A program made the translations under genes and the position numbers. From the NCBI GenBank assembly GCA_024742285.1, contig JANSYR010000007.1:186001-250000 (forward strand): a DNA stretch of 64,000 nt. Direction: 5' to 3'. Each line of letters starts with the position of its first letter. Positions within the stretch are counted from its first letter, which is position 1. This DNA is from a bacterium (GTDB taxonomy: Bacteria; Myxococcota_A; UBA9160; UBA4427). Positions 12,860-40,578 of the stretch are shown piece by piece. Under the pieces are notes generated by a model. It saw only the letters and a list, made by a program, of their open reading frames with translations, was not told where the DNA came from and made no database searches.

Positions 12860-12877
12860 TCTGATCTCCTGAGTCTT

Positions 12878-12905
12878 CGGGCCGACCCCGGATGGGGTCG
12901 GCCCG
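12878..12905 (+). terminator. hairpin downstream of the PEP-CTERM gene
   Basis: Perfect 12-bp stem CGGGCCGACCCC / GGGGTCGGCCCG with a 4-base loop (GGAT), 18 bp after the stop codon. No T-run follows, so termination here may be partial or the structure may protect the mRNA 3' end; a second hairpin lies 48 bp further on. Confidence 0.55.
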
Positions 12906-12953
12906 AGACGAAGGGAATCACGCCGGGTCCTACCGGATCCGACGACCGAACGA

Positions 12954-12989
12954 AAAGGGCCGGCGAACCTTCGGGTTCGCCGGCCCTTT
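12954..12989. terminator. strong UUCG-loop terminator, probably bidirectional
   Basis: Perfect 16-bp stem starting AAAGGGCCGGCGAACC (12954-12969), a TTCG tetraloop closed by C-G, and the matching arm ending in CCCTTT followed by CTGTTT. The A-run on the other side gives a T-run for transcripts coming from the right, so it can end both the PEP-CTERM gene and the converging small gene at 13056-13385. Confidence 0.85.
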
Positions 12990-20038: not shown

Positions 20039-22843
20039 CTAGCGCTCTTCCGCAGTGACGCGGACGGCGCAGAACTTGAACTCGGGGATCTTCCCGTCCG
20101 GGTCGAGCTCGTCGAGGGTCAGGAGATTCGCCGCCGCCTCCCGGAAGTGGAAGGGCACGAAGACCGAGCCGCGACTCTCCCGGGTCGTGAGCCGCGCCGC
20201 GAGCTGGATTCGTCCGCGGCGGCTCTCGAGCATGATTCGATCGCCGTCTGCGATTCCGAGCTCCGCCGCGTCCTCCGGATGGATCGCGGCGAACGCCTCC
20301 GGCGCGAGGGCGTCGAGGGCGCTCGCGCGCCGGGTCATCGCGCCGGTGTGCCAGTGCTCGAGCAGGCGACCGGTGTTGAGCACGAAGGGGTAGTCGTCAT
20401 CGGGCAGCTCCGGCGCCGCGGTCCACTCCGCGGGAACGAGCTTCGCCTTGCCGTTCGGCGTCGGGAAGCTCTCGTCGAAGAGGACGACGGGCCCCTCCTG
20501 CGTCGCCGGATCCGGATTCGGCCAGAGCTTGCCGTGGGGACCGAGGTTCTCGTGGCTGAGGGTCGCGTAGCTGCTCGTGAGTCCCGCCATCTCGTCGAAG
20601 ATGTCCGAAGGGCTGGCGTAGTCCATCGGATAGCCCAGACGATTCGAGACGGCCTGGACGATCTGCCAGTCGAGGCGCGCCTCGCCGGGCAGGCGGAGCG
20701 CCGGTCGACCGAGCTGGACGCGTCGATCGGTGTTCGTGTAGGTCCCGTCCTTCTCGAGGTAGGCGCTCGCCGGCAGGATCACGTCCGCGAATTCGGCGGT
20801 CTCGGTCAGGAAGATGTCCTGCACGACCAGGAACTCCAGGTTCGCGAGGGCTTTCCGGACCTTGTTCACGTTCGGATCCGAGAGGAAGGGGTTCTCGCCC
20901 ATGATGTACATGCCGCGAATCCCGCCCTCGAGGGCCGCACGGGTGATCTCGACGACCGTGAGACCCGGATCCGGCGACAGCTCGCGCCCCCAGGCCGCTT
21001 CGAATTTCGCCCGGACGTCGGGATCGCCGACCGGTTGATAGTCGGGGTAGACCATCGGGATCAGGCCGGCGTCGCTGGCACCCTGCACGTTGTTCTGGCC
21101 ACGCAAGGGGTGGAGACCGGAGCCGGACTTGCCGACGTTCCCCGTCAGAAGCGCGAGCGAGATCAGGCAGCGGGCGTTGTTCGTTCCGTAGACGTGCTGC
21201 GAGATTCCCATGCCCCAGAAGAGGATGGCGTTCTCCGCTTCGCCGAAGACCCGCGCGACTTCGCGGATCGTGTCCGCGTCCACGCCGCAGATCTTCGCTG
21301 CGCGCTCGGGGTCGTACTCGGCGACCTTCTCGCGGAGCGCCTCGAAGTTCTCGGTCCGCTCGGCTACGAAGGTCTCGTCGACGAGCCCCTCCGCGATGAT
21401 CACGTGCATCATCGCGTTGTAGAACGCGACGTCGGTCCCGGGCTTGATCCGACAGTGGTAGTCGGCGTGGTCGGCGATCGTCTCGCGACGAGGATCGACG
21501 ACGATCAGCTTCGTGCCCTGCTTGCGGGCCTGCTTGAAGAAGGTGGCCGCCACCGGATGGTTGGCGGTGGTGTTCGATCCGGCGATCAAGGCGGCGCCGG
21601 CGTTTTCGATGTCGCCGTAGGTCGTCGTGACCGCGCCGCTGCCGATCGACTCGAGCAGGGCCGCGACGCTCGACGCGTGACAGAGCCGCGTACAGTGGTC
21701 GACGTTGTTGGTCCCGAAGCCGGCGCGGACGAGTTTCTGGAAGAGGTAGGCCTCTTCGTTCGAACACTTCGCGCTCCCGAAGCCCGCCAGGGCGTCGCCG
21801 CCGTCGCGGTCGCGGATCTCGGCCAGTCGAGTCGCCACGAGGTCGAGCGCCTCGTCCCAGGTCGCCTCCCGGAAGGCGGGCAGGACCTCGGCGTCGTCGA
21901 CGATTCCGCCGGGCTTGCGACGGCCGTCGTGCTCGCCGCGCACGTCCTTCGAGAGGGCTCCCTTCGGATAGGCGCTCTCAAGCCGGATCAACGGCTTCGT
22001 GAGGCGCTGCGGATGGGCGGAATAGTCCCAGCCGTAGCGGCCCTTCACGCAGAGTCGGCCCTCGCTCGCCGAACCTCCGCGCCCCTCGGCGAAGACGATC
22101 TCGTTCGCGGCGCGATCGACGTGGTAGGTGAGCGCGCACCCCACGCCGCAATAGGGACAGACACTGTCGACAGGCTCGAGCTCGGTTCGCGGGCGGAGCG
22201 GGGCGTGGAGCGCACGATCGACGAGGGCGCCGGTCGGACAGGCCGCCGCGCATTCGCCGCACGAAACGCAGGTGCTCTCGCCCATCGGCTGGTCGAGATC
22301 GAAGGCGATCCTTGCGCCGTAGCCTTTGCCGGAGCGACCGATGACGTCGTTGCTCTGGACGTCGTCGCAGGCTCGGACGCAGCGATCGCAGAGGATGCAG
22401 GCCTGGTGGTCGACGTCGATCACGCGGGAGCTCGCGTCCTGCCCGCGCGGCGCGGTCTCTGCCGACGCGGGAAACCGCGCGCCGTCGACGTCGTAGCGGC
22501 GCGCCAGAGCCACGAGCTCGTTGTCTTCCAGGGCCGACTCGCGACGGTCCTCGGCCGGCACGCTCGGTTGGTCGCTCATGAGCAGATCGGTCAGCATCGC
22601 GCGATGGCGCTCGAGCTCGGGGGAGTCGGTCGTCACGGTCATGCCCGGCTGGCACTCGCGAACGCAGGCGGCGGCCTTCACCCGCTCGCCCACGTCGACG
22701 ACGCACATGCGACACACGCCGACCGGATCGAGTCCGGGCGTGTGGCAGAGGGTCGGGATCTCGATCCCTGCGGCGGCGGCCGCCTCGATGATCGTCTGCC
22801 CCTCGTCCGCTTCGATCTCGAGACCGTCGATGGTGAGCTTCAT
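20039..22843 (-). CDS. fdhA: formate dehydrogenase alpha subunit (molybdopterin, Cys type)
   Basis: 934 aa from ATG 22843, overlapping the AOR stop as ATGA. Order of domains: a [2Fe-2S] ferredoxin domain (Cys33, 44, 47, 60), two [4Fe-4S] sets (CILCDRCVRAC at 149-159; CVSCGECAAAC at 192-202), the Moco-domain cluster (CPYCGVGC at 229-236 plus Cys265), then the bis-MGD catalytic domain. CTRLCHASS places Cys388 where E. coli FdhF has selenocysteine, so it is a Cys enzyme. The His-Cys3 cluster motif (HPxDCxxC) usual in NuoG/FdsA-like proteins is absent; that stretch reads MSDQPSVPAEDRR. With the NuoEF-type subunit it should oxidise formate or reduce CO2 with NAD(H); W or Mo is undecided. Confidence 0.9.
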   Translation of the reverse strand: MKLTIDGLEIEADEGQTIIEAAAAAGIEIPTLCHTPGLDPVGVCRMCVVDVGERVKAAACVRECQPGMTVTTDSPELERHRAMLTDLLMSDQPSVPAEDRRESALEDNELVALARRYDVDGARFPASAETAPRGQDASSRVIDVDHQACILCDRCVRACDDVQSNDVIGRSGKGYGARIAFDLDQPMGESTCVSCGECAAACPTGALVDRALHAPLRPRTELEPVDSVCPYCGVGCALTYHVDRAANEIVFAEGRGGSASEGRLCVKGRYGWDYSAHPQRLTKPLIRLESAYPKGALSKDVRGEHDGRRKPGGIVDDAEVLPAFREATWDEALDLVATRLAEIRDRDGGDALAGFGSAKCSNEEAYLFQKLVRAGFGTNNVDHCTRLCHASSVAALLESIGSGAVTTTYGDIENAGAALIAGSNTTANHPVAATFFKQARKQGTKLIVVDPRRETIADHADYHCRIKPGTDVAFYNAMMHVIIAEGLVDETFVAERTENFEALREKVAEYDPERAAKICGVDADTIREVARVFGEAENAILFWGMGISQHVYGTNNARCLISLALLTGNVGKSGSGLHPLRGQNNVQGASDAGLIPMVYPDYQPVGDPDVRAKFEAAWGRELSPDPGLTVVEITRAALEGGIRGMYIMGENPFLSDPNVNKVRKALANLEFLVVQDIFLTETAEFADVILPASAYLEKDGTYTNTDRRVQLGRPALRLPGEARLDWQIVQAVSNRLGYPMDYASPSDIFDEMAGLTSSYATLSHENLGPHGKLWPNPDPATQEGPVVLFDESFPTPNGKAKLVPAEWTAAPELPDDDYPFVLNTGRLLEHWHTGAMTRRASALDALAPEAFAAIHPEDAAELGIADGDRIMLESRRGRIQLAARLTTRESRGSVFVPFHFREAAANLLTLDELDPDGKIPEFKFCAVRVTAEER

Positions 22844-24642
22844 CCTGCGTCGACTCCACCGCCCGGGCCCACGCGCAAGTCGAGTCCGAGCTCGGCTTCG
22901 AGCGCTTCGCGGCGCGTCCGCGGGACCCAGCCCGCTTCCTCGTATCCTCGCACGCCATTGTAGCCTCGGATCATCTCTTCGAGTCGAGCCGCCGGCAGCC
23001 GCGCACCGACGGCCGGACCGCTCGCCAGGGGCTCGTCGAGGAATCGCTTCGGGAGGCCGTCGTCCTCGGGACGCCACCCCTCCCGCTCGTTGCCCAGGCG
23101 TCGCAGGTCGACGACCCGGCGCGCGACCGCGTGGACGGCGTCCGCGTCCCACGCGTCGCCGGTCACGTCCCGGAGGATCTCCGCCGACTCCTCGAAGAGG
23201 TCGTCGAACGCACTCCGAACGAACTTGCAGAGCACCAGTGAATCGAGAACCGCGGCCCGGTCCTCCGCGGCGACGGCCGCCGCGACGGATCGCTCGTCTC
23301 CGTGCAGCCGATCGACCGTCTCCGAGAAATCCGCCTCGTAGGCGCTGCTGCGATTGTGATCGGCCCCGCGCGTGGAGACGGCGAGCCCCAGCGCCAGGCT
23401 CTGGAGCGCGCGCGGCTCGTAGCCCGGCATCTCGAGCCCCTTCACCTGCGGCGCAAGGTCGATGGCCCCGCCGCCGATCTCGAGGGCGAGCCGTCGCGAT
23501 CCCTCCGCCAACCGGTCGCCCAGTCCTTCCCGGTTCGCGATCCGGTCGAGCCAGGGAAGGAGATCGTCCCCGAAGCGCGGACCCCCTTCGAGCAGGCCGC
23601 GCTCGCCGCATTCCATCGCGAACGCGAGCGTGCCCCCCGCCGAGATCGTGTCGAGGCCGAGCGCGTCACAGCGGGCCGAGGCGCGCAGGACCGCATCCGG
23701 GTCGTCGACCCCGACCAGCGGACCGAGCGCGAACTGGCTCTCGTACTCGATGCGCACGTCCGGCGAACCGTCGCGGGTGGTCGCGAAGCGCTGCTCGCAG
23801 CCGATCGTGCAATGGGCGCAACCCGCGCGACGATGGGAGCGCTCGCCCAGCCATCGTTCCGCCGCGAGGCGCTCCGCACCCTCGAAATGACTCGCCTGGA
23901 AGTTGCGCGTCGGCAGCGCACCGACGCGATCGAAGGCGAGCAGGTTCCCCACGGTCCCGAGCTCGCGGTATTTCGCAGTCGCCGGTCCCGCCGCACGGCG
24001 GCGCAGCCCCTCAGCCCGGCGTTCGAGGCTTGCGGGATCGGCCACGGGGGTCTCGACATCCCCCGCCACGACGAGCGCCTTCAGTCGCTTGGCGCCCATC
24101 ACGGCCCCGAGACCGCCCCGCCCCGCGTGTCGCCCGTCCGCCGAGATCGTGGCGTACCGGACGCATCGCTCCCCCGCGACCCCGATCGCTGCGACCCGCC
24201 CTTCCCCCGCGAGCGCGGCCGCGGTCTCCTCCGCCGAGCGCCCCCACGACCGCGCCGGCCGGAGTTCGCCCGCGACCCACTCCGAGGGCTCGTCGCACGC
24301 GCCGATCACGACGATCGCGTCCACCCCCATGCGCTTGCCGGCGATCGCGAAATGACTGCTCGACAGCGCATCACAGACGAAGCCCGTGAGCGGCGACTTG
24401 GCGACCACCGCGAACTTTGCGCTGGTCGTGAGGCCCGTCCCGACCAGGGGTGAGAACGCGAAGACGAGCGGCGCCTCGGGCGAGAGCGGATCGAAGCCGC
24501 CCTGCGACTCGTGCAGCAAGAGCCAGGTTCCGAGACCGACGCCTCCGAGCACGCGTCGGGGGACGTCTTCCGGAAGCACTCGCGTCTCCGTCGTGCCGCG
24601 GGTCAGGTCGATGCGGAGGTAGCGGCCGTGGAAGCCGGACAT
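22840..24642 (-). CDS. aldehyde ferredoxin oxidoreductase (tungsten enzyme)
   Basis: 600 aa, close to the roughly 605 aa usual for the family, from ATG 24642. The N-terminal tungstopterin domain shows TISADGRHAGRGGLGAVMG (residues 165-183). The [4Fe-4S] ligands are CAHCTIGC (Cys275, 278, 282) and a distal Cys in SLVLCKF. AOR enzymes carry tungsten on two pterins and convert aldehydes to acids, or the reverse, with ferredoxin or a partner subunit. Here the gene sits 2 bp after the MobA-MoaD gene and overlaps fdhA, with an NADH-linked flavin subunit at the operon head, so it may pass electrons to NAD. The substrate is unknown. Confidence 0.9.
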   Translation of the reverse strand: MSGFHGRYLRIDLTRGTTETRVLPEDVPRRVLGGVGLGTWLLLHESQGGFDPLSPEAPLVFAFSPLVGTGLTTSAKFAVVAKSPLTGFVCDALSSSHFAIAGKRMGVDAIVVIGACDEPSEWVAGELRPARSWGRSAEETAAALAGEGRVAAIGVAGERCVRYATISADGRHAGRGGLGAVMGAKRLKALVVAGDVETPVADPASLERRAEGLRRRAAGPATAKYRELGTVGNLLAFDRVGALPTRNFQASHFEGAERLAAERWLGERSHRRAGCAHCTIGCEQRFATTRDGSPDVRIEYESQFALGPLVGVDDPDAVLRASARCDALGLDTISAGGTLAFAMECGERGLLEGGPRFGDDLLPWLDRIANREGLGDRLAEGSRRLALEIGGGAIDLAPQVKGLEMPGYEPRALQSLALGLAVSTRGADHNRSSAYEADFSETVDRLHGDERSVAAAVAAEDRAAVLDSLVLCKFVRSAFDDLFEESAEILRDVTGDAWDADAVHAVARRVVDLRRLGNEREGWRPEDDGLPKRFLDEPLASGPAVGARLPAARLEEMIRGYNGVRGYEEAGWVPRTRREALEAELGLDLRVGPGGGVDAG

Positions 24643-24644
24643 CG

Positions 24645-25490
24645 CTAGCCCCCGGCCTGGGCGTCGAGGACGCTGATTCGCTCGCCCGGCCCGATCGGCA
24701 GCGAGAGGTCACGCACGAGATCGCGGCCGCCGATCGACACGAGATGGGCGCGCGCCACGCGATCGCCCTCGACGAGCGAGAGGTCGCGCCCCCGCTCGAC
24801 GCGGGCGAGCACCTCGCCCAGGGAACCCACCGGCACGTCGACGACCACGGGTCCGCCGACGAGAGCGGCGCGACCCAGCAGCTCGACCTCGCAGCGCGCT
24901 CCCGGATCTACCATGCCCACCGCCTCCAGGTAGGCCGCAGGCGTATTGAATCCCTGCCACGGCGGTCGCCCCGAATCCCACTCCGTCGTCTCTTCGATCG
25001 CGACGTACTCGAGCGCTTCGAGGAGCGCGAGCGGCCGCGCGCGGTCCGCCGCGAGGAGACGCTCCGCCGTCGCGAACGCCGCCTGCGGATAGACCGCCGA
25101 CAGGACCTGGACGTGCCCGTCGGCGACCGGCGCGCAGGCCACGCGCCGTTCCAGCATCGACGCGACCCAGGCGGACGAGAGGAAGGGCGCGTCGGTCGCC
25201 GTCACGAAGGCGTATTCCGCCGAGATCGCCGCGAGTCCGTCGCGCAGTCCCGCGAGCGGACCGCGCTCGGGCTCCCGATCCCGGACGACCCGCGCCTCGA
25301 GGGGCGGCAGATCGAGATCCGCCGACGTCACCACGACGACCTCGTCCACCACCGGGCGAAGGCGGGCCACGACGTGCTCGACCATCGTCCGCCCGCCGAT
25401 CCAGGGCAGCCAGGCCTTCGCCCGCCCCATCCGCGACGACCGTCCCCCGCAGAGCACGATGCCCGCCCGCGTTCCGGCTCCGACCGACAC
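24645..25490 (-). CDS. MobA-MoaD fusion: molybdenum cofactor guanylyltransferase plus ubiquitin-like sulfur carrier
   Basis: 281 aa. Residues 1-195 are a MobA-type nucleotidyltransferase with LCGGRSSRMGRAKAW (residues 13-27) and TDAPF (99-103). Residues 200-281 read as a small beta-grasp protein: VVVDVPVGSLGEVLARVE, VSIGGRDLVRD, GERISVLDAQAGG, ending in the free Gly-Gly that MoaD/ThiS proteins use to carry sulfur. Such a fusion would join the sulfur-insertion step and the GMP-attachment step of pterin cofactor assembly in one polypeptide. It stands between the NuoEF-type gene (15 bp) and the AOR gene (2 bp), so it is probably dedicated to the cofactors of AOR and FdhA. Confidence 0.8.
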   Translation of the reverse strand: MSVGAGTRAGIVLCGGRSSRMGRAKAWLPWIGGRTMVEHVVARLRPVVDEVVVVTSADLDLPPLEARVVRDREPERGPLAGLRDGLAAISAEYAFVTATDAPFLSSAWVASMLERRVACAPVADGHVQVLSAVYPQAAFATAERLLAADRARPLALLEALEYVAIEETTEWDSGRPPWQGFNTPAAYLEAVGMVDPGARCEVELLGRAALVGGPVVVDVPVGSLGEVLARVERGRDLSLVEGDRVARAHLVSIGGRDLVRDLSLPIGPGERISVLDAQAGG

Positions 25491-25505
25491 GACGAGCCGT
25501 TCGGC

Positions 25506-27140
25506 TCAGTCGCCGTCGGTCGCGCGCGCGACCTCGGGGAAGCGATCGAGGATCGAGAGGAGCGGCCCGAGCGCGACCTGCCCGAGGCCGCAGATGCTCG
25601 TCTGCTGCATCGTCTCGTGGAGCGAGCGCACGAGCGCTTCGTCCTCCGCCGAGACGCCCTCGCCCTTCGAGAGCAGGGCCACCGCCTTCTCCGATCCGAC
25701 GCGACAGGGCACGCACTTCCCGCACGACTCGTTCCGGAAGAAGCGCGTGATCGAGCGACCGACGTCGAGCAGGTCGCGGGACCCGTCGACGAAGACCGCC
25801 GCGCCGGATCCGAGCATCGTCCCGGCAGCCGCGAGGGCATCGAAGTCGAGGGCGAGGGTGAGGGCCTCGGGACCGAGGAAGTTGCTCGAGGCGCCGCCCG
25901 GTGCGACCGCCGCGAGGGTCGCCCCGTCCTTCACGCCGCCGTGGGCTTCGAGCACGTCGCCCAGGGAGACCCCGACCGGGAAGAGCGACACCCCCGGCGC
26001 CGCGACGTCCCCGCTCACGGAGAGGAATTTGTGACCCGCGAAGTCGCCGACGCCGAGCCCGTGCCACCAGTCGACGCCGCGGTACACGATCGAGACGACG
26101 TGGACCAGCGTCTCGACGTTGTTGATCAGCGTGGGCAGTCCGTCGAGGCCCGCGTTCCCGGGAAAGGGCGGCTTGTTGCGCGGCTCGCCCCGACGATCCT
26201 CCATGCACTCGAGGAGCGCGGTCTCCTCCCCGAGGATGTAGCCCCCGGGCGAGACGAAGATCTCGACGTCGAAATCGAATCCCGACCCGAAGAGGTCGCG
26301 ACCGAGGCCCCCTGCGGCCCGGGCCGCTTCGAGCGCCGCTTCGAGTCGGAGGCGTTCGGCGCCGTACTCGTGGCGGATGAAGACGATGCCACGCGAGGCG
26401 CCCACGCAGTACGCGGCGATCGCCATTCCTTCGAGGACGAGGTGCGGCACGTCGTGGAGGAGCTCCCGGTCCTTGAAGGTCCCAGGCTCGCTCTCGTCGG
26501 CATTGCAGACGACGATCTTCTCGTGCGCCGTCTCCGCCGCGACGAGCGACCACTTCCGCCCCGTCGGGAAGCCCGCCCCGCCCATCCCTCGGAGTCCTGC
26601 GCCATCGAGTCGTTCGATCGGGTCGGTCTTCGAGCCCGCTTCGACGACGCTGCGGAGTACGCCGAACGAAGCGAGCTCGCCCGCCGCATAGGGATCGGCC
26701 TCGGGCCAGCTTCGCACCGGTCGCGGAACGGCCTCGCTCGCGTCGGCCGCGACGGCCGTCAGCACGGCGTCCTGGTCGGTCACGTCGAGCACGTGGTCGC
26801 CCAGGGCGGCCGCCGGCGCCGCGTCGCAACGACCGAGGCAGGAGACTTCGTGCACCTCGAAGGCCGGCGCGCCCTCGCCTCCGGCTGCGCGGGATCGGAG
26901 GCGTTCGCAGGCTGCTTCACCGCCGGCGAGTCGGCACGAGAGGTCGCGGCAGACTTCGACGATGGGACCGACCGGTCGCTCCCGCCGGAAATGCGTATAG
27001 AAGGTTGAGACGCTCTCGATCCGGTGGAGCGGGACGCCGAGTTCGGTGGCGAGCGCCTCGAGGCGATCCGGCGGAAGCCACCCCTCCTCCTCCTGGAGGC
27101 GGAGGAGCGCGCGCACGATGCCATGCGGTTCGGGGCTCAA
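25506..27140 (-). CDS. NAD-linked formate dehydrogenase beta subunit (NuoE-NuoF fusion)
   Basis: 544 aa from TTG 27140, chosen because GGAG lies upstream and the preceding in-frame residues are Arg/Pro filler. The first 150 residues are a NuoE-like [2Fe-2S] domain (VCRDLSC, SCLGRCDAAP). The rest is NuoF-like: FMN loop GLRGMGGAGFPTGRKW, NADH loop SPGGYILGEETALL, and a [4Fe-4S] set ESCGKCVPCRVG plus a later Cys in SICGLG. It moves electrons between NAD(H), FMN and the FeS clusters of FdhA. It heads the operon that continues with MobA-MoaD, AOR and FdhA. No separate gamma subunit or FdhD is seen nearby. Confidence 0.9.
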   Translation of the reverse strand: MSPEPHGIVRALLRLQEEEGWLPPDRLEALATELGVPLHRIESVSTFYTHFRRERPVGPIVEVCRDLSCRLAGGEAACERLRSRAAGGEGAPAFEVHEVSCLGRCDAAPAAALGDHVLDVTDQDAVLTAVAADASEAVPRPVRSWPEADPYAAGELASFGVLRSVVEAGSKTDPIERLDGAGLRGMGGAGFPTGRKWSLVAAETAHEKIVVCNADESEPGTFKDRELLHDVPHLVLEGMAIAAYCVGASRGIVFIRHEYGAERLRLEAALEAARAAGGLGRDLFGSGFDFDVEIFVSPGGYILGEETALLECMEDRRGEPRNKPPFPGNAGLDGLPTLINNVETLVHVVSIVYRGVDWWHGLGVGDFAGHKFLSVSGDVAAPGVSLFPVGVSLGDVLEAHGGVKDGATLAAVAPGGASSNFLGPEALTLALDFDALAAAGTMLGSGAAVFVDGSRDLLDVGRSITRFFRNESCGKCVPCRVGSEKAVALLSKGEGVSAEDEALVRSLHETMQQTSICGLGQVALGPLLSILDRFPEVARATDGD

Positions 27141-27271
27141 GACGGGACTCCGGCTTCGCGCGGGGCGCGGTAGATCTCGCGCGAGTCTAACCCATCGAAG
27201 GGGCCGGTTGAGGGCCTCGCGGCGCACGCCCCGGCCGAACTCGAAGTGCGTTCGCGTGTGCCCCGCGCGCC

Positions 27272-27295
27272 GGCCAGACGGTCTACCGTCTGGCC
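27272..27295. promoter_or_regulatory. perfect 11+2+11 palindrome just upstream of the thioesterase gene
   Basis: Arms GGCCAGACGGT and ACCGTCTGGCC separated by CT. The core AGACGGTCTACCGTCT looks like a TetR-family operator. It ends 3 bp before the ATG at 27299 and lies in the 158-bp gap shared with the divergent NuoEF-type gene, so it could control either. If the start codon is right, the thioesterase mRNA has no room for a normal ribosome site and may be leaderless. Confidence 0.55.
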
Positions 27296-27298
27296 GCC

Positions 27299-28129
27299 AT
27301 GGAAAGAGCCGGAAGCGACGACGCCCTCTTCGAACGCCAGGACACCGAGACGCGGGAAGACGCGGAGACCCTCGCGATGACCTGCACGCCCTACACGGGC
27401 GGCCCCTGGAATCCGGACCACCAGCACGGTGGCGCGGTCTCCGCGCTCGTCGCCTATGCCGTCGACCGGATGCCGAGCCCGGTCCCGATGCGAGTCGCGC
27501 GCCTCTCCCTCGACATGTTCCGGGGCGTGCCGCTCACGCCGCTCCGGGTCGAGACGCGGGTGACCCGGGGCGGGCGACGCATCCAGGGGCTCGAGACGAC
27601 GATCTACGACGGCGACACGCCGGTCACCCGCGCGACGGCCCTTCGGGTCCGCACGGAGGACGACCTGGCGGAGCTCGACGCGCCGCTCGCCTCGGCGCCG
27701 GATCTCGGGTCGCCGCCCGAGGTGGTGCCCGAGTTCGCGATGCGAAGCGGCTTCATGCGGATTCCGCCCTTCGTGATGGCCTGCGATCTCGTGCCCGGCC
27801 ACGCGAAGGTGTGCGGCGAGCCGGCGTTCACCTGGGCGCGGCTGCGTTGCCGCGTCGTCGCCGGCGAAGAGACGAGCCCGCTCGTCCGACTCGCAGCGGT
27901 CGTGGACTTCGCGAGCGGGACCGGCAACGCGATGGACTACACGAAGTACACCTCGATCAACCCGGACCTCTCCATCCACCTGGTCCGCGCGCCCCGTTCG
28001 GCGTGGGTCGGCCTGCGCGGAATCACCACCCGCTCGCCGGACGGGATCGGTCAGAGCAGCGCCACGATCCACGACGCCCTGGGCGAGATCGGACGCGCGA
28101 ACGCCACCCTGCTGCTCGACCGTCGTTAG
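27299..28129 (+). CDS. acyl-CoA thioesterase family protein (double hotdog)
   Basis: 276 aa from ATG 27299. The start segment DALFERQDTETREDAETLA followed by GGPWNPDHQHGGAVSALVAY is the usual opening of TesB-like/thioesterase-superfamily proteins, and LSLDMFRGVPLTPLRVETRV continues the first hotdog. The second half (WARLRCRVVAGEETSPLVRLAAVVDF, then TSINPDLSIHLVRAP) is the second hotdog with the expected Asp/Ser/Thr positions. It should hydrolyse acyl-CoA thioesters; chain preference is unknown. A palindrome sits directly before the start and may be an operator. Confidence 0.85.
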   Translation: MERAGSDDALFERQDTETREDAETLAMTCTPYTGGPWNPDHQHGGAVSALVAYAVDRMPSPVPMRVARLSLDMFRGVPLTPLRVETRVTRGGRRIQGLETTIYDGDTPVTRATALRVRTEDDLAELDAPLASAPDLGSPPEVVPEFAMRSGFMRIPPFVMACDLVPGHAKVCGEPAFTWARLRCRVVAGEETSPLVRLAAVVDFASGTGNAMDYTKYTSINPDLSIHLVRAPRSAWVGLRGITTRSPDGIGQSSATIHDALGEIGRANATLLLDRR

Positions 28130-36810: not shown

Positions 36811-37731
36811 ATGAGATCCGCCCCCCCTGCCCTCGACGAGACCTCCTTCCAGGCACCGCTTCGCGTCCTCCTCGTCGAGGACGATCCCGAGTACGTCCGG
36901 ATCGTCGAACGCGCCCTCGCGCCGGCGGGCCGGACCGTCGAGGTCGACCACGTCGAGACCCTCGGTGCGGCCCTTCTCGAGCAGGACCGGGACCCCCGTG
37001 ACGTGGTGCTGCTCGACCTCGCGCTGCCCGATTCCGATCCCGCGACGACGACGCGATCCGCCGGACGCCGCCTGGTCCGCTCGGCACCGGTGTTCGTGCT
37101 GACGGGCCGCGACGTTCGAGACGGCGCACTCCGGGCGCTCCAGGCCGGCGTCGAGGACTACTTCGTGAAGGACCAGCTCGACCCCGACACGCTCTCCGCG
37201 GTCCTGCGCCTCGCCGTACTCAGGCGGGCGGCCCGAACCTCCCACGACCGCGGACGACGCCTCGACGCCGCCGCGTTCCGGGACGCCTTGCGGAATCGGA
37301 TCGCTTCACGCGTCGACGGCGAATCGCTGCGCATCAACGTCGTGGAGCTCGACGGCTTCTCGACTTCGCGAGAAGCGCGGGGCGAAGCCTGGGCGCAGCG
37401 CATCATGCGCGAGGCAGGCGACGCACTCGTCTCGGCCGTCTCGAAGGACGGGATCGTCGGGGAGCTCGGAGAAGGCGTCTTCGCCGTCGTCGACGGAGAT
37501 CGGGAGATCACGGCCCCCTTCGCCGACGGTGCGCTCGAGGAAGCGATGGCGCTCTCGCCGGAGGTGTCGCGCGGCGAGCAGCGGGACCTGACGGCCACCT
37601 GCGGCCACGTGTGCGTCCCGGAGCACGGAGCGCACCCGTCGTCGCTGCTCGCAGCGGCGCTGGAGCGAGCCCGAAAAGCGGCTCGCCCGCCGAGCGTTCG
37701 CCGCGGCTCGCCGACCGGGTCCCGAGCCTAG
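36811..37731 (+). CDS. response regulator with a degenerate GGDEF-like domain
   Basis: 306 aa from ATG 36811. A receiver domain fills residues 17-135 (LLVEDDPEY, VLLDLALPDSD, FVLTGRD, and KDQLD as the Lys end). The second half aligns with GGDEF fold landmarks (AAFRDALRNRI, INVVELDGF, AGDALVSAV), but the signature loop reads GELGEGVFAVV instead of RxGGDEFxxL, so cyclase activity is unlikely; nucleotide sensing or pure protein contact is possible. Its stop overlaps the converging ETR-like kinase stop. It probably receives phosphate from the hybrid kinase just upstream. Confidence 0.8.
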   Translation: MRSAPPALDETSFQAPLRVLLVEDDPEYVRIVERALAPAGRTVEVDHVETLGAALLEQDRDPRDVVLLDLALPDSDPATTTRSAGRRLVRSAPVFVLTGRDVRDGALRALQAGVEDYFVKDQLDPDTLSAVLRLAVLRRAARTSHDRGRRLDAAAFRDALRNRIASRVDGESLRINVVELDGFSTSREARGEAWAQRIMREAGDALVSAVSKDGIVGELGEGVFAVVDGDREITAPFADGALEEAMALSPEVSRGEQRDLTATCGHVCVPEHGAHPSSLLAAALERARKAARPPSVRRGSPTGSRA

Positions 37732-39284
37732 GACGGAACGGTGAAGGTGAACGTCGTCCCATGACCGCGCCTCGACTCCAGGTAGATCCGACCGCCGTTG
37801 CGTTCGACGATCTTCTTCACGATCGCGAGGCCGAGCCCGCTCGCGTCTTCGCCGGAGCGGGCGGCGAGTGTCTGGAAGATGAGGAAGACGCGCTCGTGGT
37901 GTTCCGGAGCGATGCCGACCCCGTCGTCCGCGACACGAAACTCCACGTGGTCGCGCACGCGATCTGCCGACACACGGACGGTCCCGCTGTCCGCGCCCAT
38001 GTGGCGGATGGCGTTGGAGATCAGGTTCTGGAAGATCTGGTGGAGCTGGACACGCGGATACGAGACCTCCGTGAGCTCTCCGACCTCGATGGCGATCGAG
38101 GGCGGCGCGTCGATCGACTCGATGACTTCGTGGACGAGCGCGGAGACGTCGAGGCGCTCGGCCTCGACCGGATGAGTCGCCGCGCGCGAGTAGTCGAGGA
38201 CCCCGTCGATCATGTTGTGCATTCGCCCGACGCGCTCCGTCAGCATCGCCAGCTGCTCGCGACCCTCCGCGTCCAGGCGGTCGCGCTGATCCTCCGCGAG
38301 AAACTGGGAGAGCGAGGCGATCCCCCGCATCGGCGACTTGAGATCGTGGGACACGACGTACGCGAACTGCTCCAGCTCGCGATTCGATCGCTCGAGTTCC
38401 TCCGCGCGACGCGCCAACTCGGCGGTCCGGTCGTCGACGCGCTTGGACAGCTCCTCGTTGAGATCGCGAAGGCGATTCTGGACGTCGATCCGATCGCTGA
38501 TGTCCCGAATCGCGGCCGTGACGACCATTCCGGCGTGCGTATCGAGGGGACTCAGGCTGATCTCGACCGGGAACTCGGTCCCGTCGCTTCGCAGACCGAA
38601 GAGCTCCCGCCCGGCGCCCATGGGCTTGGGAGCGGCGTTCGCCATGTATCCGTTGCGCTGCAGAACGTGGGCCTCGCGGGCGGCCTCGGGCACCAGCATC
38701 TCGATCGCCTGGCCGATGAGGGCCTCGCGCGCGTAGCCGAAGAGACTCTCGCAACGCGCGTTGACGAGCTCGATGGAACCGCCTGCGTCGACGATCACCA
38801 TCGCGTCGGGCGCCGCTTCGAGCAAGGAACGGAAGCGCTCCTCCGCGAGCCGCCGCTCGTCGATCTGCGTACGAAGCGCATCGTTCGCGGTCGAGAGCTC
38901 CGCTGGATTCGGGATCGCGAGGATGCGCGGGATCATCGGCCACAACGCCGATGCGGTGAGCACCGACACCACCGCCGTCGCCCCCTTCACGACCCCTTCC
39001 GCGCGATAGATCGGATCCCACATCGTCCAGATTCCGAGCACGTGGGTCAGGCCGCAGAGAAAGATGAACGCGGCGAAGAGAGTCAGGACGTGGGAGTAGT
39101 TGAGGTCCGTACGTCGCCGATAGAGGACCACGAGCGCGACCGGAATCGAGAAATAGGAGAGCGCGACGACCGCGTCCGAGATCACGTGGAGCCACAGGAT
39201 GTCGGGCTTCCACATGAAGCAGTGCCCGTGCGGCATGAAGCTCGACTCGAAGAGGTTCGCGAAGAAGTCGATGACTGCGGACAT
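37728..39284 (-). CDS. PAS histidine kinase with an ethylene-receptor-like membrane domain
   Basis: 518 aa. Three hydrophobic helices lie in residues 25-120. The first reads LHVISDAVVALSYFSIPVAL and the second FAAFIFLCGLTHVLGIW; this closely parallels plant ETR1, where the Asp in helix 1 and the Cys-x3-His in helix 2 serve copper and ethylene binding (here Asp37, Cys77, His81). A PAS domain follows (150-265), a coiled coil (270-305), then HisKA with SHDLKSPM (His313) and a complete HATPase (NLISNAIRHM, DDGVGI, GLGLAIVKKI). It is downstream of a REC gene and an OmpR-type regulator on the same strand, its likely partners. The ligand is inferred, not shown. Confidence 0.85.
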   Translation of the reverse strand: MSAVIDFFANLFESSFMPHGHCFMWKPDILWLHVISDAVVALSYFSIPVALVVLYRRRTDLNYSHVLTLFAAFIFLCGLTHVLGIWTMWDPIYRAEGVVKGATAVVSVLTASALWPMIPRILAIPNPAELSTANDALRTQIDERRLAEERFRSLLEAAPDAMVIVDAGGSIELVNARCESLFGYAREALIGQAIEMLVPEAAREAHVLQRNGYMANAAPKPMGAGRELFGLRSDGTEFPVEISLSPLDTHAGMVVTAAIRDISDRIDVQNRLRDLNEELSKRVDDRTAELARRAEELERSNRELEQFAYVVSHDLKSPMRGIASLSQFLAEDQRDRLDAEGREQLAMLTERVGRMHNMIDGVLDYSRAATHPVEAERLDVSALVHEVIESIDAPPSIAIEVGELTEVSYPRVQLHQIFQNLISNAIRHMGADSGTVRVSADRVRDHVEFRVADDGVGIAPEHHERVFLIFQTLAARSGEDASGLGLAIVKKIVERNGGRIYLESRRGHGTTFTFTVPS

Positions 39285-39882: not shown

Positions 39883-40578
39883 TCACCCGGACGCGGGCTT
39901 CGCCAGCCGATACCCCACGCCGCGAACGGACTCGAGGAGACCGCCCAGGGGCGCGAGTTTCGCGCGCAGGTTGCTCATGTGCGTGTCCACGGTCCGCGCG
40001 GAGATGGTGACGCCGGCCCACGCGAACTCGATCAGGCCTTCGCGCGAGACCGGCTCTCCGCGCCGAGAAGCGAGGCAGTGGAGGAGGCGGAACTCGTGCG
40101 GTGTGAGGTCGCAGGCCCACTCGCGATCCTCGGCTCGAATCACGACCTCGAGCTGCAGCGGGTCGAGCCTCAGATCGCTGAAGTGGAGTTGCCGATTCTC
40201 GCGATTCGCGTGCCGCAAGCGCGCCTCGATCCGCGCGCGCAGCTCCGTGCCGTCGAAGGGCTTCTGCACGTAGTCGTCGGCGCCCAGCTTGAACGCCTTC
40301 ACCTTGTCGTGCGCGTCACCGCGCCCGCTCAGGAAGATCAAGGGCACGCTCTCCAACGCCTGATGGCTCCGGATTCGGGCGCATACGTCGAATCCATCCT
40401 CGTCCGGAAGCCCCACGTCGAGCAGGATCAGGTCCGGTACATGGGACACCACCTGGCGAACGCCGTCGGCGCCCGTGTCCGCGACGGACAGGTCGAAATC
40501 CGAACGGAGGCACCGACGGATCAGGTCCTGGGCTTCGGGAGAGTCCTCGATGATCTGGATTCGAAACACGATCGACAC
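39883..40578 (-). CDS. OmpR/PhoB-type response regulator (REC-winged helix)
   Basis: 231 aa from GTG 40578, with GGAGAAGG as ribosome site. Receiver: IQIIEDSPEAQ, LILLDVGLPDEDG, IFLSGRGD, GADDYVQKPFD. DNA-binding winged helix: LTPHEFRLLHCLASRRGEPV, TVDTHMSNLRAKL and SVRGVGYRLAKP. All catalytic receiver residues are present, so it should be a phosphorylation-controlled transcription factor. It leads the minus-strand set regulator, lone receiver, ETR-like kinase, and is the only clear DNA-binding output in the island. It diverges from the REC-PAS gene by 131 bp. Confidence 0.92.
   Translation of the reverse strand: MSIVFRIQIIEDSPEAQDLIRRCLRSDFDLSVADTGADGVRQVVSHVPDLILLDVGLPDEDGFDVCARIRSHQALESVPLIFLSGRGDAHDKVKAFKLGADDYVQKPFDGTELRARIEARLRHANRENRQLHFSDLRLDPLQLEVVIRAEDREWACDLTPHEFRLLHCLASRRGEPVSREGLIEFAWAGVTISARTVDTHMSNLRAKLAPLGGLLESVRGVGYRLAKPASG

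Follow-up and report, generated by a model that had tools for sequence, protein, structure and literature searches.

Operators of TetR-family repressors are short inverted repeats that overlap a promoter. Promoters of leaderless genes carry a mark of another kind: according to Zheng et al. 2011 (PMC3160421), TANNNT located about 12 bp before the start marks leaderless genes, with TA-led genes tabulated there for 8 of 33 delta-proteobacterial genomes. In Zhong et al. 2025 (PMC12340547), experiments in Deinococcus identified the ORF-adjacent TANNNT as a -10 region subject to spacing constraints, and a -35 element added at a suitable place raised transcription. The palindrome analyzed here abuts a predicted start codon in a window of 64,000 nucleotides (the whole stretch of DNA that was analyzed), and carries a TANNNT sequence. 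We consider it likely, judging from sequence comparisons, that its right arm serves a leaderless promoter as -10 box and discriminator, and that the symmetry is incidental.

The preliminary description reported a perfect 11+2+11 palindrome at positions 27272-27295, ending 3 bases before an ATG, in the gap that a thioesterase gene shares with divergent genes. Each of these points was confirmed: the repeat is exact and reads GGCCAGACGGT-CT-ACCGTCTGGCC, its last base (27295) and the ATG (27299) are separated by three bases, and the gap is common to the thioesterase and to oxidoreductase-type genes transcribed away from it. The palindrome is in fact longer than first noted, since one further pair extends it to 12+2+12 (27271-27296, with no strand assigned; arms of 12, spacer CT), which leaves two bases between its end and the thioesterase ATG.

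The gene downstream (27299-28129, plus strand) starts with ATG and codes for an acyl-CoA thioesterase-like protein of 276 amino acids, with 4HBT_3 and 4HBT_3C domains (PF13622 and PF20789); searches against PDB sequences and against NCBIfam returned no match at 0.001. The divergent genes, called formate dehydrogenase in the preliminary description and named here by their Pfam domains, encode, in order, a NuoE+NuoF-like fusion, a MobA-like protein, an aldehyde:ferredoxin oxidoreductase (AOR)-family protein, and a molybdopterin oxidoreductase. The fused NuoE+NuoF-like subunit (25506-27140, minus strand) probably starts with the TTG at 27140, which GGAG precedes, and TAGACT at 27184-27189 of the same strand is the putative -10 box of the divergent genes; the sequence GATGGG(T/G)TAGACT is common to the window and its two closest relatives. 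The genes for the NuoEF-like fusion, the MobA-like protein, the AOR-family protein, and the molybdopterin oxidoreductase with Fe-S domains lie adjacent to one another at 20039-27140, and their products may form one complex.

The proposed -10 box of the thioesterase promoter is TACCGT at 27284-27289 (plus strand), which is separated from the ATG by 9 nt. Its first T is at -15, within the stretch, some 10-15 nt upstream of the start codon, where TANNNT defines a TA-led promoter. From the position of the box, transcription is predicted to start at 27296-27299 on the plus strand, with a leader of 0-3 nt; that is, RNA polymerase would initiate at most about 3 nt from the thioesterase start codon, and the mRNA, devoid of a leader, would be translated in the absence of a Shine-Dalgarno site. 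None of the Shine-Dalgarno-like tetramers GGAG, GAGG, and AGGA is present at -22 to -4 of the thioesterase start. No -35 box was seen in the window, the best match to TTGACA being one position out of six.

To compare the upstream region with that of other genomes, thioesterase homologues were collected. A match was present in 51 of 117 genomes, and 30 loci were given, one of them (L003) being the window. Upstream sequences were read at 19 loci, with L022-L032 outside this set, and 12 of them, the window included, were used, each having a clear ATG near the box. In the window and in the 11 chosen relatives, a TANNNT sequence precedes the ATG by 8-9 nt; the starts of the relatives were picked by eye, a procedure that favours finding the box. 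The boxes of these 12 loci are TACCGT (three times), TACGTT, TACCTT, TACGCT, TACTGT, TACACT, and TATGCT (four times). Among the seven other loci, TANNNT was seen 6-10 nt upstream of a possible start in L016 and L021, and no such box was seen in L012 and L017-L020 (5 of the 19 loci read), in both cases by eye. The relatives are best hits, and their orthology is backed by a common divergent neighbour for L004-L008 only, where the NuoEF homologue adjoins the thioesterase gene. A search for this neighbour at 17 loci gave a match in eight (L003-L008, L033, and L034, the last two duplicating the contigs of L004 and L005) and no match in L009-L016 and L035, most of which hold little flanking sequence. 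The closest named relative found was a deltaproteobacterial MAG (PAQX01000005.1).

In the two closest relatives, L004 and L005, whose proteins are 83 and 80% identical to that of the window, respectively, all 16 positions between the centre of the palindrome and the ATG (27283-27298, plus strand) are identical. The left arm agrees with the window at 6/12 and 7/12 positions in L004 and L005, and the flank at 21/32 and 18/32. In all 11 relatives, pairing in the same register is limited to 3-7 of 12 positions, a comparison shifted by one in L010 and L015, where the spacing is 8; the left arm is kept in none of them, and neither is the perfect repeat. Thus, the relatives alter the reading of a striking palindrome: the promoter box is kept and the symmetry is lost. 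The left arm, seen in this genome alone among those compared, would supply the palindromic form and would be at most a recently gained repressor site.

The left-arm zone is nevertheless under some constraint of its own in the relatives, because L004 and L005 match one another at 11 of 12 positions there, against 18/32 in the flank, and because L004, L005, L007, and L008 have a common sequence, GAACGSC, immediately ahead of the -10 box, at positions of about -23 to -17 relative to the ATG. Where these four read GAACGSC, the window reads AGACGGT. A few changes from the relatives' sequence of this zone were enough to complete the palindrome, which most likely arose in this way in a spacer already similar to it. 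A GAA element, which precedes the box in several relatives, does not characterize the wider class of TANNNT genes in this genome (5/48 versus 4/48 in a control stretch).

This class was defined among 642 starts in 776 kb of the genome, predicted with a simple codon-usage gene finder written for the analysis rather than with a standard annotator. TANNNT with its first T at -16 to -11 precedes 48 of the 642 starts, and the counts peak at -12 (20 starts), -13 (10), and -15 (9). The background is low, with seven occurrences summed over the ten positions from -26 to -17, and a control pattern, TNNNAT, shows no peak. A Shine-Dalgarno-like tetramer was found before 5 of the 48 starts of the class, versus 364 of the 594 others; in the first 441 kb, the corresponding numbers are 2/30 and 213/344 (Fisher p 1.6e-9). 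A match to TTGACA at four or more positions, at a spacing of 16-18, is present in seven of the 48 genes, versus about 2.3 in shuffled sequences, and some of them may have a -35 box. The sequence TACCGTC, which comprises the box and the base next to it, also takes the place of the start-adjacent box at two other genes, where no palindrome is seen by eye. Candidate leaderless genes thus make up about 7% of the predicted starts in this GC-rich genome, and recognition of the class would aid start-codon annotation there.

The palindrome itself is the longest perfect repeat in the -40 to -1 regions of the 642 predicted starts (loops of up to 8 in 776 kb), and arms of 12 were reached in 0 of 19,260 mononucleotide shuffles of these regions. 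A simple calculation gives a chance of about 4.3e-5 per start, about 0.03 for 642 starts, and an expectation of about 0.24 genome-wide if 5500 genes are assumed. The palindrome is unusual, yet a single such repeat in a genome is close to what chance would give. Repeats with arms of at least 9 precede 6 of the 642 starts, versus about 0.9 expected from shuffles, and from this excess we conclude that some of them are probably operators, that is, real sites of this genome. One of the six belongs to a TetR gene (C7:295412-296074). Long inverted repeats are in themselves no rarity in this genome: four with arms of at least 12 occur in the window, every one intergenic, and in 441 kb there are ten, 9 of them intergenic, compared with 0-3 in six third-order Markov simulations. 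Two strong inverted repeats of the window, 13+4+13 at 12877-12906 and 16+4+16 at 12954-12989, lie between the stops of convergent predicted genes (12859 and 13056) and are probably terminators.

The main rival explanation is a recent repressor site. A species-specific operator, on which a dimeric repressor (TetR-like or other) would bind the palindrome and block the leaderless promoter across its -10 box, is compatible with the assignment of the box, and the one point on which it departs from our reading is the incidental nature of the symmetry; we consider it possible, though unlikely. The rank of the palindrome among the 642 upstream regions speaks for an operator, as do the 74 TetR_N matches of the genome (73 of them over the cut-off; 150 of 170 first-look candidates were scored) and a comparable layout at one TetR gene (C7:295412-296074), which indicates that such a layout occurs in this genome. 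Rather improbable, in our judgement, is the particular origin in which a repressor site newly evolved in this species by mirroring the -10 box and discriminator of the leaderless promoter; one arm of such an operator would share its bases with the promoter box, and repression would extend over the transcription start as well as the start codon.

On the other side, the loss of the left arm in the 11 relatives combines with the results of the genome scan. An exact match to the 16-bp core occurs nowhere else in the genome, and its single one-mismatch copy lies inside a predicted coding gene on contig 19, the product of which is putatively Ffh. Among the candidates scored, no TetR_N match is found in the window; the nearest ones on the same contig, at 172291 and 295880, are about 41 and 83 kb away. 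Hence the proposal of the preliminary description, an operator of an acyl-CoA-sensing TetR-family regulator, is not supported; the suggested acyl-CoA sensing draws on the neighbouring gene encoding a thioesterase. A single protein of the window, an OmpR-type response regulator (39886-40578), has a regulator-type DNA-binding domain, as judged by a Pfam search of 30 ORFs at 11591-45361 (a few of them alternative readings of one stretch); beyond this interval the search covered TetR only. A sensor kinase at 37731-39284 of the window has an ethylene-receptor-like N-terminal domain (PF25487).

Degenerate copies of the core were also counted. With up to three mismatches allowed, the window contains eight matches versus 4.16 expected, and eight were reached in 5 of 100 shuffles. 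At two mismatches or fewer, there are 37 places in the genome versus 14 for a reversed-pattern control; a 14-bp version of the core gives 24 versus 3, and across 60 genomes (its own included) the core gives 40 places versus 26 for the control, summed over the table. The excess over the reversed control is a result on the operator's side, to which we give little weight, because such a control poorly matches a self-complementary, CG-rich pattern. A second exact copy of the 14-bp version, at C6:284395, is within a predicted gene. When 13 of the genome's 37 places with up to two mismatches were placed relative to genes, 11 were in predicted genes, which argues against an operator; the remaining two are the palindrome itself and C1:218612. 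Two-mismatch places within about 2 kb of TetR genes on C5, C25, C10, and C6 are all four in predicted genes; two more places within about 2 kb of a TetR match are on C12 and C19. At the TetR gene on C7 (L085), a single base separates the palindrome CGACCGACCGGTCGGTCG from a downstream TAGTCT box, itself 7 nt before the ATG, and this gene likely has a self-repressed leaderless promoter.

It is very improbable that transcription comes from far upstream and that the palindrome, as part of a 5' leader, folds into an RNA hairpin beside the start codon. Such a stem is predicted to be stable (81 nt with a minimum free energy of -31.8 kcal/mol), but its z-score is -1.31, with 21 of 200 shuffles folding equally well, and the stem is lost in relatives while the TANNNT spacing stays. 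Hardly credible is a later gene start, with the palindrome inside an ordinary leader: the missing Shine-Dalgarno-like tetramer before 27299 would fit it, but six aligned sequences, among them that of the window and all selected because their match starts with residue 1, have M1, A4, D8, and F11 without exception, and the next Met, M27, is not conserved in them. Outside this alignment, the N-terminus of L006, MENAQPENHLF, fits by eye except for N at position 8, and that of L009, MRNP, does not fit. The preliminary description had left the choice between leaderless translation and a later start; the former is supported by the TANNNT spacing in relatives and by the class in this genome, and the latter is contradicted by the N-terminus common to the six sequences.

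We found no literature joining TetR operator overlap, a leaderless promoter, and acyl-CoA. Like TetR-family operators, the palindrome is an inverted repeat (12+2+12) lying over a proposed -10 box; unlike them, it comes with no TetR gene in the window, a second exact site is absent, and one arm is not kept. Set against the TA-led genes of Zheng et al. 2011 (PMC3160421), the locus has the same TANNNT mark before the start codon and differs in that the box, at -15, is inside an arm of a perfect palindrome. The class to which it would belong in this genome (48/642, few of them with a Shine-Dalgarno-like tetramer) matches the leaderless pattern given there, and is minor by comparison with D. radiodurans, where about one third of genes are concerned according to Zhong et al. 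2025 (PMC12340547). Taken together, these comparisons suggest that the palindrome-borne box belongs to the known TA-led (leaderless) kind of promoter.
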